A DNA stretch of 47,835 nucleotides from Actinomycetes bacterium (GTDB lineage: Bacteria > Actinomycetota > Thermoleophilia > BMS3ABIN01). The stretch is taken from assembly GCA_021790115.1 (NCBI GenBank), contig JAJYIM010000012.1:1-47835 (forward strand), written 5' to 3'. Below are positions 2,029 through 18,902 of the stretch, piece after piece; positions within the stretch are counted from its first letter, which is position 1; each line of letters begins with the position of its first letter. Both the position numbers and the translations under genes were made by a program. The notes beneath the pieces were generated by a model that worked only from the letters and a program-made list of their open reading frames with translations, was not told where the DNA came from and did no database searches.

Positions 2029-2910
2029 TTAGGAATCGATGATTTCCAGGGCATCGTTCATACTGCCACTTCTGAACCCTTCCAGATCGAGAGCGATATA
2101 GGTATAACCAAGCTTTTTTAACCGGTCGACAACCTGTTGCCGCCCCTCGGAAGACACAAGCCGGGCCAGCTCTTCCACGGGGATTTCAATGCGGGCGACG
2201 GCGCCGTGATCCCTGACCCGCAGTTGTTTGAAGCCCAGGCTTCTCATAAACTCCTCCGCCTGCCCAACACGCGCCAGGGCTGCAGGTGTCAAGCGGGTGC
2301 CGTAAGGAAACCGCGAAGACAGGCAGGCCTGAGCCGGCTTCTCCCAATTCTCCAGCCCCAGATGGCGGGCCAGCAGGCGCACCTGCTGCTTGCCGGCTTC
2401 AATCCGGGCCAGCGGATGGATCACACCGGCTTCATCGCTTGCCTTGATGCCGGGGCGAAAATCGCCGAGGTCGTCTGCATTGACACCGTCGGCGATATGT
2501 GCCAAGCCTTTTTCCTGGGCAAGGAGGCGCACCTTACGCCACAGTTCCGACTTGCAGTGATAGCAGCGGTCGGGTCCGTTGGCGGCAAAACCGGGATCAT
2601 CCAGTTCTCTGGTTTGGATTATTGCCAGCCGGATGCCGAGCTGCGCCGCCAGGCGGCGGGATTCGTCCAGCTCCCGGGCCGGCAGTGTTTCTGATTGCGC
2701 CGTTACTGCCAGGGTTTTTTCCCGTCCCAGGACCTGCGCCGCTGCTGCCGCCACCACGGTTGAGTCAACCCCGCCGGAAAATCCGACTGCAATGCTTTCC
2801 AGCGGTTTGATAACGTCAAACAGATTTTTTAGCAAAGCGGCGCCATTTCGAGACGTGGAACTCTTATCTGCCGGCAATCCTGCCATTGTGCGGCTGCTAT
2901 TTGTCCACAA
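2029..2910 (-). CDS. larE: LarE-type ATP-dependent sulfur transferase (PP-loop)
   Basis: PP-loop SGGVDST, CYHCK, and QACLSSRFPYGTRLT as in LarE. Confidence 0.85.
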   Translation of the reverse strand: MWTNSSRTMAGLPADKSSTSRNGAALLKNLFDVIKPLESIAVGFSGGVDSTVVAAAAAQVLGREKTLAVTAQSETLPARELDESRRLAAQLGIRLAIIQTRELDDPGFAANGPDRCYHCKSELWRKVRLLAQEKGLAHIADGVNADDLGDFRPGIKASDEAGVIHPLARIEAGKQQVRLLARHLGLENWEKPAQACLSSRFPYGTRLTPAALARVGQAEEFMRSLGFKQLRVRDHGAVARIEIPVEELARLVSSEGRQQVVDRLKKLGYTYIALDLEGFRSGSMNDALEIIDS

Positions 2911-3310
2911 TCGTTATACCTGTTTCTGCAACGTTCCCGTCCAAAATTTTAAAAACGCGGCTATCGGCCTTATTATCCATCAGCGATACGATCAGATAAA
3001 GGGAGTCGGGATAAAAGGCAAGCTCGCAGTCGCTGGCCGATGGATAGGCGGGGGAGTGGGGGTGAGAGTGGAAAATTGCCACCAGTTCCAGGCCCTCCTG
3101 CTCAATCTGGTCAAAGACACGGAACTGCTCCCGGGAATCCATCTGGTAAAAAGTTGAGCTGGCGGCCGCATTTAGCATGGTAAAAACCCGGCGCACTGTA
3201 CCGTCAGCGTCGCCCGCCAGGATGCCGCACGCTTCTTCAGGGTCGCAGGCCCGGGCATGCTCCAGGACGGCTCCAAGCTGGGCCCGGCTAAGCCGCAGGG
3301 AAGTTGGCAT
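2897..3310 (-). CDS. JAMM/Mov34 (M67) metallopeptidase
   Basis: EEACGIL ... HSHPHSPAYPSASD JAMM signature. Confidence 0.9.
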   Translation of the reverse strand: MPTSLRLSRAQLGAVLEHARACDPEEACGILAGDADGTVRRVFTMLNAAASSTFYQMDSREQFRVFDQIEQEGLELVAIFHSHPHSPAYPSASDCELAFYPDSLYLIVSLMDNKADSRVFKILDGNVAETGITIVDK

Positions 3311-4125
3311 CAGGTCTTCGGCGCCTGGGTTTTGCAGGCGTAAGTGTATTCAACCAGCTCGGTAATTGATGGCTTCTTGCCGCATACCGGGCAGTCGGGA
3401 TTGCGTTTTGCTTTTACCTCATGAAAGCGCAGTTCCTCGGCGTCGAACTGAAGCAGGCGGTTATACAGCGGCTTGCCGATCCCCGTCAGGATCTTCAGCA
3501 CTTCCGTAGCCTGCAGAGTCCCCACCACGCCGGCGACCGCGCCTAACACTCCTGCTTCGGCGCAGCTGGGCACGGTGCCGGGAGGGGGTGGCTCCTCAAA
3601 AACACAGCGGTAGCAGGCTGTCTCGCCGCCGCGGATGCTCATAATCAGCCCCATAAAACGGAGAATGCCTCCTTCAATCAGGGTCTTCTTTTTCATCACA
3701 CAGGCATCGTTCAGCAAGTAGCGGGTGGGGAAATTGTCAACGCCGTCAACGATAACGTCATATTTATCCAATATATCAAAAATATTTTCCTTGGTCAATC
3801 TTTGTTGATAAACATCTATTTCCACGTGGGGATTAATCCGCTGCATTGTCTCACTGGCGCTGGCAGCCTTGGCTTTGCCCACGTCGGGAGTGGCATGCAG
3901 CACCTGCCTTTGCAGGTTGGTGAGGTCGACAACATCATCTTCAATGACGCCAATGCGGCCCACGCCGGCCGCGGTCAGGTAAAGCAGCGCTGGCGAGCCC
4001 AGGCCGCCGGCGCCAATAACCAGCACGCTGGATTCCTTCAGTTTCTGCTGTCCGCTGCCGCCAACCTCGGGCAGGATAATGTGCCTTGAATAACGCTCTA
4101 TTTCCTCTTCAGAAAGATTAAACAT
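3310..4125 (-). CDS. ThiF/MoeB/HesA-family E1-like adenylyltransferase
   Basis: ERYSRHIILPEVGGSGQQKLKESSVLVIGAGGLGSPALLYLTAAGVG; CysxxCys pairs; start at MFNLSEEE rather than the longer ORF. Confidence 0.92.
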   Translation of the reverse strand: MFNLSEEEIERYSRHIILPEVGGSGQQKLKESSVLVIGAGGLGSPALLYLTAAGVGRIGVIEDDVVDLTNLQRQVLHATPDVGKAKAASASETMQRINPHVEIDVYQQRLTKENIFDILDKYDVIVDGVDNFPTRYLLNDACVMKKKTLIEGGILRFMGLIMSIRGGETACYRCVFEEPPPPGTVPSCAEAGVLGAVAGVVGTLQATEVLKILTGIGKPLYNRLLQFDAEELRFHEVKAKRNPDCPVCGKKPSITELVEYTYACKTQAPKT

Positions 4126-4405
4126 TTCCGCCTCCCATGAAGTAAAGAAAGTCAACCCTGTCGCCTTCGCACAGGGAGATATTTTCGAAATCACGCCGCA
4201 CCATAATTTGGCCGTTGATGCGAATGTTTACGTAGGCCGAATTTTCGCCCTGGGCTTCCAGCAAGGAGCGGACGTCCGGCGGGCCGGAGTAAGCTTGTTT
4301 TTTTCCCTGGACAATCAGATTAAGAGGCAAACCGGGCCGAGCCTGGCCACTTCCCAATTTTAACAATTCCGGACCCTTTCCTGAAATTTTGCCGCCGGCC
4401 GCCAT
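4118..4405 (-). CDS. MoaD/ThiS-like sulfur-carrier protein ending ...FMGGGNV
   Basis: Beta-grasp pattern and C-terminal GGG; position directly before the E1. Confidence 0.85.
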   Translation of the reverse strand: MAAGGKISGKGPELLKLGSGQARPGLPLNLIVQGKKQAYSGPPDVRSLLEAQGENSAYVNIRINGQIMVRRDFENISLCEGDRVDFLYFMGGGNV

Positions 4406-4419
4406 CAGCCGGCCCTGAG

Positions 4420-4659
4420 CTAGGCCTGCGCTTTTTTCACGTAAACTTCAACGTGATCCTGCCGGTCTTCAATCCTAAGCACCTGGTGCCCGTTGCTCCT
4501 CACCCACGCGGGTAGGTCGTTCTTGCTGACAGGATCGTCGATCATCACTTTGACGATGCCGCCGCCGCCAAGCTGTTCCAACGCGAGCGCCGTCTTAACC
4601 GACGGCATGGGACATTTCATCCCGCGGGCATCGAGCAGGTAATCTTCTTTTATGTCCAT
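4420..4659 (-). CDS. TusA/SirA-family sulfur carrier
   Basis: LLDARGMKCPMPSVKTALALEQL (CPxP motif); AAGGAGGG SD before ATG at 4659. Confidence 0.9.
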   Translation of the reverse strand: MDIKEDYLLDARGMKCPMPSVKTALALEQLGGGGIVKVMIDDPVSKNDLPAWVRSNGHQVLRIEDRQDHVEVYVKKAQA

Positions 4660-4685
4660 GATTGCCCTCCTTGCTGGACTTGCAC

Positions 4686-4739
4686 AATCTATCTCAAAAG
4701 GCATCTCTGCCGCGAACAGCCTTTTAAAATCGATTCTTA
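4686..4739. repeat. Interspersed inverted repeat copy between cysK and tusA
   Basis: AATCTATCTCAAAAGGC ... GAACAGCCTTTTAAAATCGATTCTTA. Confidence 0.8.
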
Positions 4740-5705
4740 ACGGGAAGATGACCTGGCGTCGCCAAACAGTTGGGTGGTCAGGTAACGCTCGCCCGTATCC
4801 GGCAAGACTGTAACAATCATTTTACCCTTACTTTCAGGGCGTTTGGCAAGTGAAAGCGCGGCAAAAGCGGCCGCCCCTGAGGAAATACCGCAGAGAATCC
4901 CTTCTTTTAGCGCCAATAGCCTGCTGGTCTCCTCGGCGTCTTCGTTGCTTACCTGGATAATTTCATCATAGATGCCGGTATTGAGAATGTCAGGAACAAA
5001 ATTGGCGCCTATCCCCTGAATCCGGTGCGGCCCGGGAGCGCCGCCGGAAAGTACCGGCGACGCCTCGGGCTCGACAGCCACTATGTATGCCGAAGGATTG
5101 CGCTCCTTTAAAATTTCTCCCACGCCGGTGATGGTGCCGCCCGTGCCGATTCCGGACACAAAAATGTCAACGGCGCCCTGGGTGTCGCGCCAGATTTCTT
5201 CGGCGGTGGTCTGACGGTGAATCTCCGGGTTGGCCGGATTGCTAAACTGTTGGGGCACGAAAGCATCGCCGTATGTTTCCACAAGCTCGTCGGCCTTCTC
5301 GACCGCGCCCCGCATTCCCCCGGGGCCGGGGGTAAGGACCAGCTCCGCCCCCAGGGCTTTCAGCAGGCCGCGGCGCTCGACGCTCATCGTCTCCGGCATT
5401 GTCAGCACCAGATGGTAACCCTTGGCGGCGCAGACCATGGCCAGCGCTATGCCGGTGTTGCCGCTGGTGGGCTCGATGATGGTTGTCTTACCCGGGACGA
5501 TTCTGCCCTCACGCTCTGCTGCTTCGATCATGGCTATGCCAATCCGGTCCTTGACACTGCCGCCGGGATTAAAGCTTTCCAGTTTTACCACCACCGAGGC
5601 GCCCAGGCCTTCATTTAGCCGGCGCAAACGCACCATCGGCGTATTGCCGATCAGCTCTATAATATTATTTGCGATCAATGTTGCTCCCGTCTCTACGGTG
5701 CTCAT
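4737..5705 (-). CDS. cysK: Cysteine synthase
   Basis: [46 protein letters not shown]. Confidence 0.95.
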
Positions 5706-5744
5706 CGCGTTCCTCCAACCCTGTAGTTGACTTATTGCTCACTT

Positions 5745-6185
5745 TTAAATATAATACATTTCCTTTGCTTGGTCCTGCAAGACGAGTTCCTTGTCAGCCA
5801 GGTCGGCGATGGTCGCACCGGCCAAAACGCCCTCCAGGCTGCTTTTGGCATCTGTCCAGACATCCCGCACGGCGCAGCGCTCAGCCTTGTCACAAGCGGC
5901 GCCAATCGTGCAGGCGGCGGGGGCAATATTACCGTCAAGAATTTCAATGACATCGAGAACGCTGACATCCTCGGGGAGCCGCTTGAAACTAAAGCCGCCG
6001 CGGACGCCGCGGTGGCTGTTTAGGATTCCTGCTTTGCGGAGACTAGAAAAAAGCTGCTCCAGAAACTGGAGGGGGATATCCCGCTTGGAAGCGATGTCAC
6101 CAATAGGAACCGGCAGGCCTTCGTTATGTTGCGCCAGCTCGACAAGGGCCCTGACAGCATACTTACTCTTGGCAGAAATGTTCAT
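5745..6185 (-). CDS. Rrf2-family regulator with IscR-like CX5CX5C
   Basis: SKYAVRALVELAQ ... LEQLFSSLRKAGILNSHRGVRGGFSF; C-TIGAA-C-DKAER-C. Confidence 0.93.
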   Translation of the reverse strand: MNISAKSKYAVRALVELAQHNEGLPVPIGDIASKRDIPLQFLEQLFSSLRKAGILNSHRGVRGGFSFKRLPEDVSVLDVIEILDGNIAPAACTIGAACDKAERCAVRDVWTDAKSSLEGVLAGATIADLADKELVLQDQAKEMYYI

Positions 6186-6205
6186 GTAAAATCTCCAGTT
6201 ATTTA

Positions 6206-6218
6206 GATAAGTATTATC
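6206..6218. promoter_or_regulatory. Palindrome GATAAGTATTATC in the leader of the Rrf2 gene, candidate operator
   Basis: GATAA-GTA-TTATC lies between the promoter and ATG of the Rrf2 gene. Confidence 0.45.
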
Positions 6219-6236
6219 AGCTTTAATGTAATGTGA

Positions 6237-6265
6237 ATTATATCCACTTGAATAAGACTTGTCAA
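6237..6265 (-). promoter_or_regulatory. Consensus sigma70/A promoter of the cysteine operon
   Basis: Minus strand TTGACA-N17-TATAAT. Confidence 0.8.
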
Positions 6266-6297
6266 GCTTTATGTATAATGATAATTAATACCTGCAA

Positions 6298-6714
6298 ATG
6301 AAAACATTTGAAACAATTGAGCACACCGCGGATATAGGAGTGCGATCCTTTGGCGCCACCGAGGAAGAGGCGTTTGAGAATGCTGCCTTCGGCATGTTCA
6401 GCCTGCTTGCCGATCTGGAACTGGTAAGCGATGAAGTGGAATTTCCCGTGATTGTGGAGGGCGAAGACCGTGAGACGTTGCTGGTGGAGTGGCTCAATGA
6501 GCTGCTTTATATTTATGAAAGCCAGGGTGTGATTCTGAAAAAGTTTCACGTTAGCGTGCTTGAGGATACGCGCCTTGAGGGCAGCGCCTGGGGCGGCCAT
6601 ATTGATCCCGCCCGGCATGAGATCAGGACCGACATTAAGGCGGTCACCTATTATCAGTTGCAGGTAACCAGGACTGAAAAGGGATGGATAGCAGAAGTAA
6701 TCTTTGATGTATAG
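6298..6714 (+). CDS. Archease
   Basis: FETIEHTADIGVRSFGATEEEAFENAAFGMFSLLADLE. Confidence 0.92.
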   Translation: MKTFETIEHTADIGVRSFGATEEEAFENAAFGMFSLLADLELVSDEVEFPVIVEGEDRETLLVEWLNELLYIYESQGVILKKFHVSVLEDTRLEGSAWGGHIDPARHEIRTDIKAVTYYQLQVTRTEKGWIAEVIFDV

Positions 6715-16250: not shown

Positions 16251-16358
16251 CAGAGCAGCCTGCATTTGTGACAGAGAGCCGCCGGGAAATCGCTTCTCAT
16301 AGTACAGTACAGCCTGCAAATAAGCATATTATCCCAGCATTAGCTTTGCTTATTTGAA

Positions 16359-16376
16359 ACTATCCATTCGGATAGT
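16359..16376. promoter_or_regulatory. Palindrome ACTATCC-ATTC-GGATAGT, candidate Rrf2 operator
   Basis: Perfect 7-bp inverted repeat about 120 bp upstream of the Rrf2-TusA gene. Confidence 0.45.
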
Positions 16377-16498
16377 AAGGTTTAATGAGAAAAGAAAAGG
16401 GAAAAAGAATAAATTGTTGACTCTGGAGGTCTACATTATTAAACTGCAGATGGTAACGAATCAAATCAAAACGATTTTGGAAAATTATTTTTCTTAGC

Positions 16499-17230
16499 AT
16501 GCTCATTTCATTAAAAAGCGAGTATGGGTTGCGCGCCCTGATGGATATTGCAGCCGAAGGAAAGAATAGGCCTGTAGGCCGGGCGGGAATCGCCAGGCGT
16601 CAGCAGATTCCGCTTCCGTACCTGACACAGGTGCTGGGGCGCCTTGTTAACGGCGGCCTGTTAAAGAGCACCAGGGGGCCTGCCGGCGGTTATAATTTGA
16701 GCCGCTCGCCGGCCAGTATCAGTTTGCTGCAAGTAATAACGGCGCTCCAGGGGCAGGTTGCTCCGGCAAACTGCGACTCAATCAGGCAGGGAGGCCAGTG
16801 CGGCCGGCTGGAAGGCTGCGGGCTGGCCGGTGTCTGGTCCCGGCTGCAAAGCGCCAGCGAGAGAGTTCTCGAAAAGACAAGCCTGATGGATATCCTATCG
16901 GAAAACGTTAGCGGCAAGGTTTCCCGGCCGATGAGGTCTCATGAAACGGCAGCAGCCGGCGCAGGCCGGCGCGAAGGCGGCAAGCCTTCCACACACAAAA
17001 GGCTGGACTGCATTGGAGATGCATGTCCGCTACCGATCGTTCGAATTGCCAAGGAGATAAGAGAGCTTCGTCCCAGCCAAATCCTGGAGGTATGGGCGGA
17101 TGATGAGGGAGCCAAAGCCGATATTCCGGCCTGGTGCATGGGAACCGGAAACGATTTTCTTGGCCATGAGGCACATGGGCGGCAAATGAAGTTCATGATC
17201 CGCAAAGCGGCATCTGAGGCGGGAGCCTGA
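16499..17230 (+). CDS. Rrf2-family regulator fused to a C-terminal TusA/SirA domain
   Basis: N-term SEYGLRALMDIAAEG ... GGYNLSRSPASISLLQVI; Cys cluster; C-term RLDCIGDACPLPIVRIAKEIRELRPSQILEVWADDEGAKADIPAWC, single uninterrupted ORF. Confidence 0.9.
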   Translation: MLISLKSEYGLRALMDIAAEGKNRPVGRAGIARRQQIPLPYLTQVLGRLVNGGLLKSTRGPAGGYNLSRSPASISLLQVITALQGQVAPANCDSIRQGGQCGRLEGCGLAGVWSRLQSASERVLEKTSLMDILSENVSGKVSRPMRSHETAAAGAGRREGGKPSTHKRLDCIGDACPLPIVRIAKEIRELRPSQILEVWADDEGAKADIPAWCMGTGNDFLGHEAHGRQMKFMIRKAASEAGA

Positions 17231-17253: not shown

Positions 17254-18495
17254 ATGCAAAAAGCAATTTTTCTTGATAATGCGGCGACGACGCGGACCGG
17301 CGCGGGCGTGGTCAAGGCAATGCAGCCGTGGCTGGAGCAGAACTTCGGCAGCCCGGCCACTTTGTATTCGCTTGGCTCCCAGGCCAAACAGGCCATCGAG
17401 GACGCCAGGCAGAGCCTGGCCGGGCTGATCGGCGCTGAGGCCAAGGATATTTTCTTTACCAGCGGCGCCACCGAGTCCAATAACTGGGCCATCAAGGGTG
17501 TCGCCGAGGCGCTGGCGGAAAAAGGAAGGCATATTATTACGAACCAGGCCGAGCATCATTCCATTCTGATGCCGCTCCGTTATTTGGAAAAAAAGGGCTG
17601 GGATATATCTTATCTGCCGGTTGACGGCGACGGCCTGGTTGATCCCGATGCTATCTCGGCAGCGATTAGGCCTGACACGGTTCTCATCACCACTGTGCAC
17701 GCCAACCATGAGATCGGCACCATCCAGCCGGTTGCCGAGATAGGCCGGATTGCAGCGGAAAAAAAGATCGCCTTTCATGTGAATGCCGCCCAAACTGTCG
17801 GTCATATCCCTGTAGACGTCAACTCCCTTGGCGCGCATTTGCTATCCATTTCCGGGCACAAATTCTACGGCCCCAAGGGCGTGGGAGCCCTTTATCTTAA
17901 GCGGGGCGTTAGAATTACGCCCTTGTTTCATGGCGGCAGCCAGGAAAAGAAGCGCCGCGCCGGCACCCACAATGTGCCCGGCATTGTCGGCATTGGCGAG
18001 GCGGCCCGGATCGCCCGTAACAGCATGGACGCCGAGATTGAGAAACTCAGTGGCCTGCGGGATTACATCTTTGCCTGGGTGGAGAAAAACATTGAAGACA
18101 TCCGCATAAATGGGCACCGTACCCGGCGGCTCCCAAATAATGTCAATTTTTCCCTCGAGGGGATCGAGGGCGAGTCAATCATGCTGTCCTTGTCATATCC
18201 GACGGCTGAAGGGGCGAGGCCGGTTTTCATTTCCACCGGTTCTGCCTGCGTCTCCGGCAACCTGGAGCCGTCTCATATCCTGCTGGCGCTGGGCCTGCCG
18301 GCGGAGTTGGCGCACGGCTCGGTCAGAATCAGCATGGCGAAAGAAGACACCCGGGAAGACATTGACTACGCTCTGGAGGCGATCGCAGCCGTGGCCGAGC
18401 GCCTCAGAAATATGTCTCCCGTTTATAAACGGGGAGACAAGAAATGCACGGCTTTTGACAAATCCGCAGGTTGTGATTGCGAAGCTGCCAGTTAA
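17254..18495 (+). CDS. Cysteine desulfurase NifS/IscS family
   Basis: FLDNAATTRTG, SGATESNNWAIKG, SGHKFYGPKGVGALY, STGSACVSGNLEPSH. Confidence 0.95.
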   Translation: MQKAIFLDNAATTRTGAGVVKAMQPWLEQNFGSPATLYSLGSQAKQAIEDARQSLAGLIGAEAKDIFFTSGATESNNWAIKGVAEALAEKGRHIITNQAEHHSILMPLRYLEKKGWDISYLPVDGDGLVDPDAISAAIRPDTVLITTVHANHEIGTIQPVAEIGRIAAEKKIAFHVNAAQTVGHIPVDVNSLGAHLLSISGHKFYGPKGVGALYLKRGVRITPLFHGGSQEKKRRAGTHNVPGIVGIGEAARIARNSMDAEIEKLSGLRDYIFAWVEKNIEDIRINGHRTRRLPNNVNFSLEGIEGESIMLSLSYPTAEGARPVFISTGSACVSGNLEPSHILLALGLPAELAHGSVRISMAKEDTREDIDYALEAIAAVAERLRNMSPVYKRGDKKCTAFDKSAGCDCEAAS

Positions 18496-18524
18496 CCGGT
18501 CATTCAGTCAACAGGGAGGATAAT

Positions 18525-18902
18525 ATGTATTCAGAAAAGGTAATGGACCATTTTCAAAATCCCCGCAACATGGGCGAAGTTGAAAACCCGGACGGAGTGG
18601 GGGAAGTGGGAAATCCGCAGTGCGGCGACGTCATGCGCATCACGATCAAAGTCGATGAGAAAGAGGACCGCATTGAGGACGTGAAATTCAAGACGCTGGG
18701 ATGCGGCGCCGCCATCGCCACCAGCAGCATGGTCACCGAGCTTGCCAAGGGAAAGCGCCTGGACGAAGCCGAGGAGATTTCCAAGAAGGTTGTGGCCGAT
18801 GCCCTGGGCGGCCTGCCGCCGCAAAAAATGCATTGCTCCAACCTGGCGTCCGATGGCCTCAAGAAAGCTATCGAGGACTACCGCTCCCGCCATGGCAACT
18901 AG
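18525..18902 (+). CDS. NifU/IscU-type Fe-S scaffold
   Basis: MYSEKVMDHFQNPRNMGEVENPDGVGEVGNPQCGDVM; KTLGCGAAIATSS; MHCSNLA. Confidence 0.95.
   Translation: MYSEKVMDHFQNPRNMGEVENPDGVGEVGNPQCGDVMRITIKVDEKEDRIEDVKFKTLGCGAAIATSSMVTELAKGKRLDEAEEISKKVVADALGGLPPQKMHCSNLASDGLKKAIEDYRSRHGN

Follow-up and report, generated by a model that had tools for sequence, protein, structure and literature searches.

What does a transcription factor gain by carrying a sulfur carrier on the same chain? The question is raised by a gene in the 47,835-nucleotide stretch of DNA analyzed here (the window), in which an Rrf2 winged helix and a TusA domain are encoded together immediately 5' of genes for Fe-S assembly. 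The gene, its parts, and its downstream neighbors are as follows.

16499..17230, + strand: rrf2-tusA fusion gene, 243 aa; ATG start, no internal stop; conserved in 16 genomes
16508..16900, + strand: Rrf2 winged-helix domain, aa 4-134; PF02082, E=9.7e-35; fold like CymR and T. potens IscR
16772..16819, + strand: three-Cys cluster C92-X8-C101-X5-C107, aligned with IscR C92/C98/C104; invariant in fusions and unfused relatives
16901..16996, + strand: variable linker, aa 135-166, probably disordered (pLDDT <50 at 137-163)
16997..17206, + strand: TusA domain, aa 167-236; PF01206, E=3.7e-21
17024-17026, + strand: codon of the catalytic Cys176 of the TusA domain, motif DAC176PLP
17254..18495, + strand: nifS, cysteine desulfurase; catalytic Cys328 equivalent present; lineage-specific Cys-rich C-terminal tail
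18522..18902, + strand: nifU/iscU scaffold; three cluster Cys and Asp39 all present; TIGR03419 above cut-off

The single uninterrupted Rrf2-TusA ORF described in the initial annotation was confirmed, with both Pfam matches far above their cut-offs. PF02082 scored 120 bits against a cut-off of 30, which places the protein in the Rrf2 superfamily, and TIGR00738 scored 112.9 against 73.3. PF01206 scored 75.2 bits against 28.6 and, together with the CPxP cysteine, identified the C-terminal part as a member of the TusA family. The AlphaFold model contained two well-folded domains joined by a disordered linker (137-163), with a low pTM and a low-confidence Cys loop (88-117). The structural matches of the Rrf2 part were CymR, IscR, and RsrR, with CymR (2y75) on top, and the best match of the TusA domain was E. 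coli TusA of the IscS-TusA complex (2.0 Å over 72 columns). In the alignment, Cys176 was invariant in 16/16 fusions, as were Asp202 and Asp208; the invariant cysteines were C92, C101, C107, C171, C176, and C213. The distance between motifs across the linker ranged from 19 to 39 aa among relatives. The CX8CX5C cluster pointed out earlier is present, but it represents the usual ligands of this branch of Rrf2 proteins; since unfused and clostridial relatives also carry it, it was ruled out as a special feature of the fusion.

A false fusion, produced by sequencing error (a concern already raised in the initial annotation), misassembly, or a decaying domain, has one point in its favor, namely the draft, multi-contig state of the genome from which the window was taken. 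The same intact ORF was found in 16 independent assemblies (G000, G001, and G003-G016), which span seven genera of one actinobacterial family (f1). Furthermore, dN/dS at unsaturated synonymous sites was about 0.01-0.2 in both domains, well below 1 and indicative of purifying selection, and was usually lower in the TusA domain than in the Rrf2 domain. These results rule out an artifact, whose probability we consider practically nil. The gene order tatD, rrf2-tusA, nifS, nifU was conserved across the fusion genomes, with metG also upstream, wherever the contig and a simple gene caller allowed it to be read; at L026, L028, and L029, an antisense ORF masked one of these genes or the gene was left uncalled.

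The family that bears the fusion consists of uncultured Actinomycetota, and the named public records are metagenome-assembled Actinomycetota. Among 60 relatives searched, full-length matches were confined to the window's own family. For 299 genomes of the class and, with a profile of the fusion, 399 genomes of the phylum, the matches listed included no full-length fusion from another family. None was listed in 392 Clostridia genomes or on viral contigs, and none of the matches listed from 72,556 plasmids covered 80% of the fusion query. When the profile matches listed were ranked by score, full fusions reached 370-400 bits and proteins from outside the family at most 158. Across the class, phylum, Clostridia, plasmids, and viral contigs searched, the fusion thus appears restricted to this family.

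The region 5' of the fusion gene contains three further elements.

16359..16376, no strand: second upstream palindrome ACTATCCATTCGGATAGT, partly conserved
16413..16437, no strand: 25-bp dyad, putative operator ATTGTTGACTCTGGAGGTCTACATT (AWTGTNNA-N9-TNNACAWT); only exact match in G000
16417..16445, + strand: sigma-70-like promoter TTGACT-17-TAAACT, overlapping the dyad; conserved 5' of the fusion in the family

In 17/17 promoters, a TTGACT-like -35 element lies inside the 25-bp dyad. As the dyad pattern was derived from these 17 promoters, its presence there is no test, and the test was a search of whole genomes. Exact copies numbered one in 15 genomes and two in G007, and none was found in G008, G017, or G018. 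As a control, the reversed pattern gave zero matches except for one copy in G011. When one mismatch was allowed in a regulon search, the matches listed were near the control level in many genomes. In having one exact operator per genome, the fusion differs from IscR, which has a wide regulon. Because the dyad covers the gene's own -35 box and essentially no other copy occurs in the genome, the fusion is, judged from sequence, very probably a dedicated autoregulator with local rather than global scope. A perfect operator-type palindrome of 25 bp was also observed at a contig end in G007 (L077, G007:C75, 1535-1559), after a large membrane-protein-like ORF, and could be a second target in that genome. 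Further palindromes occur at 16320-16376 of the window (one like ATAAGC-N3-GCTTAT, and one like CTATCC-ATTC-GGATAG followed by GGTTTA), and both recur in several relatives. A search of the leader against Rfam gave no match.

We compared the fusion with known regulators. The best PDB sequence match was IscR of Thermincola potens (4cic, E=3.9e-19). With this protein and E. coli IscR, the fusion shares the Rrf2 winged helix, cluster cysteines at three corresponding sites (Cys92/98/104 of IscR), the first position in a desulfurase-scaffold operon, and an operator-like dyad over its own promoter. It differs in its C-terminal TusA domain, in its cysteine spacing (CX8CX5C instead of CX5CX5C), and at the DNA-contact residue Glu43, which is Thr. 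The IscR ligand set of three Cys plus His107 is incomplete, the fourth ligand being replaced by Ala, and the score of the IscR equivalog TIGR02010 was 82.3 bits, below the cut-off of 207.55. Because the two IscR-specific residues are absent and the docking residues of the E. coli TusA-IscS pair are mostly not conserved (see below), the predicted protein should be placed with the Rrf2 regulators and not be called IscR. In RsrR of Streptomyces, Glu8 is a ligand. The fusions have an invariant Glu8 at this position, which is also that of NsrR Asp8, a cluster ligand (PMC5411485), and all unfused sisters have it too. Unlike NsrR and RsrR, the fusion carries a TusA domain and lies in an Fe-S assembly neighborhood instead of near NO or redox genes. 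In CymR, which is also an Rrf2 regulator, sensing depends on a partner from sulfur metabolism, the enzyme CysK (PMC9338935, PMC2869319). A repressor that reads sulfur metabolism via a partner enzyme is the same idea, but here the partner module is fused and the cluster cysteines are kept, whereas CymR binds no cluster. The CymR equivalog NF047409 gave 73 bits against 195, with the three ligand Cys present.

We propose tentatively, with slightly less than even confidence, that the fusion is an IscR-like autorepressor specific to the rrf2-tusA/nifS/nifU operon, with a TusA sulfur carrier of its own attached through a flexible linker. Its features suggest a repressor that may read sulfur directly from the machinery under its control. 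The Rrf2 part would form a dimer, hold a cluster on C92/C101/C107 (perhaps with Glu8), and repress by binding the 25-bp dyad. Cys176 of the TusA domain would take persulfide from NifS in competition with NifU, and the tethered carrier would be loaded when NifS output exceeds NifU demand. The state of the carrier would feed repression, either through sulfur supply to the regulator's own cluster or through altered DNA binding, and repression would be relieved when NifU draws sulfur or cysteine is short. The proposal of a tethered acceptor is based on three precedents: in E. coli, TusA and IscU occupy IscS one at a time (PMC2854127; PMC11446229); E. coli mutated in tusA contains fewer Fe-S clusters and shows increased iscR-lacZ (PMC11302051); and CymR senses through a sulfur enzyme. 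An autorepressor with a sulfur acceptor is supported by the invariance of Cys176, Asp202, and Asp208, the low dN/dS of the TusA domain, the conserved gene order, the unfused sister operons described below, and the single-copy operator dyad common to both. On the other side, the genome contains additional TusA genes (four) and desulfurase-like proteins (at least two), which disfavors this explanation.

The downstream genes bear on the sulfur step. As noted earlier from the sequence, a desulfurase and an IscU scaffold directly follow the fusion: nifS starts 23 bp 3' of it, and nifU is next. Both the catalytic Cys of the desulfurase and the three Cys plus Asp39 of the scaffold are present, identifying a NifS/IscU-type Fe-S assembly pair. 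The NifU model TIGR03419 scored 200.7 against 187.9, and the NifS equivalog narrowly missed its cut-off (485.9 against 530.75). NifS ends in a Cys-rich tail (KKC...GCDCEAAS, 18430-18495 in the window), which occurs in all 16 fusion genomes and is missing from 11/11 other NifS proteins compared from the phylum; it is perhaps a sulfur relay to TusA.

The contact between NifS and the TusA domain was compared with that in E. coli (PDB 3lvj). The fold, the CPxP Cys, Asp45, and Asp51 of E. coli TusA are conserved in the fusion, the domain now being part of a predicted DNA-binding protein. The docking set (M24, R27, R31, and F58 of TusA with W45, E49, and D52 of IscS) is not: in the fusions, R27 is replaced by A/S and F58 by G; in NifS, W45 is replaced by S and E49 by Q; and only position 31 (Arg in 12/16) and D52 (as Glu) are partly kept. 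The E. coli-type TusA equivalog NF001423 scored 47.8 bits against 78. With residues changed on both sides, a different TusA-NifS interface is possible. These replacements also bear on a sensor that works by docking and not by persulfide chemistry, in which TusA would be a NifS-binding adaptor, NifS would co-repress with or sequester the regulator as CysK does for CymR, and the signal would be free NifS unoccupied by NifU. The CymR-CysK precedent in the same protein family, the mutually exclusive binding of TusA and IscU on IscS, and the adjacency of nifS to the regulator in both fused and unfused forms are in line with such an adaptor. However, it is precisely the E. coli docking residues that are not conserved, whereas Cys176 and its surrounding acidic residues, which pure docking would not need, are invariant. 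We regard this alternative as decidedly improbable.

Next, we consider the unfused relatives. Among the matches listed, the best non-fused Rrf2 proteins (families f55 and f74) head a compact operon, rrf2-nifS-dsrE2-tusA, in which the DsrE2 was identified by PF13686 (E=6.6e-52). In the Rrf2 tree, the f55/f74 regulators were sister to the fusions (support 100/99), and the window's other Rrf2 (5745-6185) stood apart. In the TusA tree, which is short and weakly supported, the fused domains grouped together (79/86), near the operon TusAs and one DsrE2-linked TusA of the same genome. The operon TusAs, which are among the closest to the fused domain, are 43-54% identical to it (36% in the partial locus L057). 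The dyad lies at the same distance from the gene in the unfused operons. It is exact in L056, where 1/1000 shuffles were as good, has one mismatch in L058 (9/1000) and two in L060 (36/1000), and in L059, with three mismatches, is at chance level. These operons differ from the fusion in having separate proteins, a DsrE2, and no NifU; in f55/f74, nifU is in a second operon under an ordinary Rrf2, whereas the nifS-nifU operon of the fusion family begins with the TusA-linked regulator. Together with the common operator, they give independent support to a functional link among NifS, TusA, and Rrf2. As a sister clade with nifS, dsrE2, and tusA in one operon, they also indicate, in the manner of a "Rosetta stone," that the partners were probably neighbors before joining. 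The fusion has an apparent single origin, and we infer that, together with the fusion, a regulator from a sulfur-relay operon took over the control of Fe-S assembly.

One genome of the window genome's genus, G002, lacks the carrier. Its Rrf2 ORF of 163 aa stops shortly before nifS and lacks precisely the TusA domain; the regulator, operator dyad, nifS, and nifU are all kept. Since G002 is nested inside the fusions in the tree, this state is a secondary loss, which shows that the regulator can be retained without the carrier. Fission was ruled out as the route, as there is no extra free TusA (4 copies, one fewer than in most of the genus). A joint loss of TusA and the Cys-rich tail of NifS was also rejected; beyond an A7 run, the tail can still be read in frame +1, perhaps because of a frameshift error. 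In G017 and G018, the lack of a fusion is not a real absence: these are incomplete bins without the nifS-nifU region or a NifU orthologue.

The retention of a regulator without TusA is what would be expected if the chain had two separate jobs, with Rrf2 as a normal cluster-sensing autorepressor and TusA as a NifS-dedicated carrier for other pathways (tRNA thiolation, cofactors), the fusion ensuring equal production with no sulfur input to regulation. The three-Cys cluster like that of IscR, the long disordered linker and low pTM, which suggest independent domains, and the separate partners in unfused relatives fit this account as well. Against it, free TusA genes already exist elsewhere in the genome, a carrier would usually be required in greater amount than a repressor, and the TusA domain has remained fused and conserved through seven genera. 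We consider this account possible but somewhat doubtful. G002 and the changed docking residues on both sides also weaken the reading that NifS persulfide regulates the operon. Direct persulfidation of the regulator by NifS, making it a sulfur-flux sensor, was suggested in the initial annotation. In its full form, this reading is a one-component sensor in which persulfide would pass from NifS to the protein's own TusA domain and on to an Rrf2 Cys or cluster, and transcription would be set directly by the balance of desulfurase output and scaffold demand, not by cluster level alone. Such a complete relay appears unlikely. Because nature provides the regulator without the fusion (f55/f74), with it (f1), and with a secondary truncation (G002), the regulatory role of the carrier is directly testable.

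No description of an Rrf2-TusA fusion was found in the open-access literature, represented largely by titles and abstracts, in agreement with the earlier statement that no characterised example was known; in an open-access paper naming both Rrf2 and TusA, they are treated as separate genes. The components are already known, and their combination with its operon is what is new. Known Fe-S regulators read an end product (cluster, NO, or redox state) or a metabolite via a partner enzyme. If the tethered-carrier proposal is correct, a repressor carrying the sulfur acceptor of the desulfurase under its control would sense persulfide flow with the simplest wiring.

Other sulfur genes were observed in the window and its genome. 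A second sulfur cluster (2029-6185, - strand), most of whose genes were named by eye, resembles a CysO-type cysteine synthesis cluster.

5745-6185, - strand: separate Rrf2
4737-5705, - strand: CysK
4420-4704, - strand: TusA
3310-4194, - strand: MoeB/ThiF-like
2897-3310, - strand: JAMM-like
2029-2910, - strand: LarE-like ATP pyrophosphatase

Elsewhere, L078 and L079 (G000:C4 and G000:C40) contain a TusA-DsrE2 pair and a cluster of DsrE-like proteins, TusA, a lipoyl-carrier-like (GcvH) protein, radical SAM, and lipoate ligase-like genes, which by eye resemble an sHdr/LbpA sulfur relay. At L080 (G000:C44), a YeeE-like membrane protein (4953-6455, - strand) lies near a TusA copy (G000:C44:8663-8872), and the two are a possible thiosulfate uptake pair.
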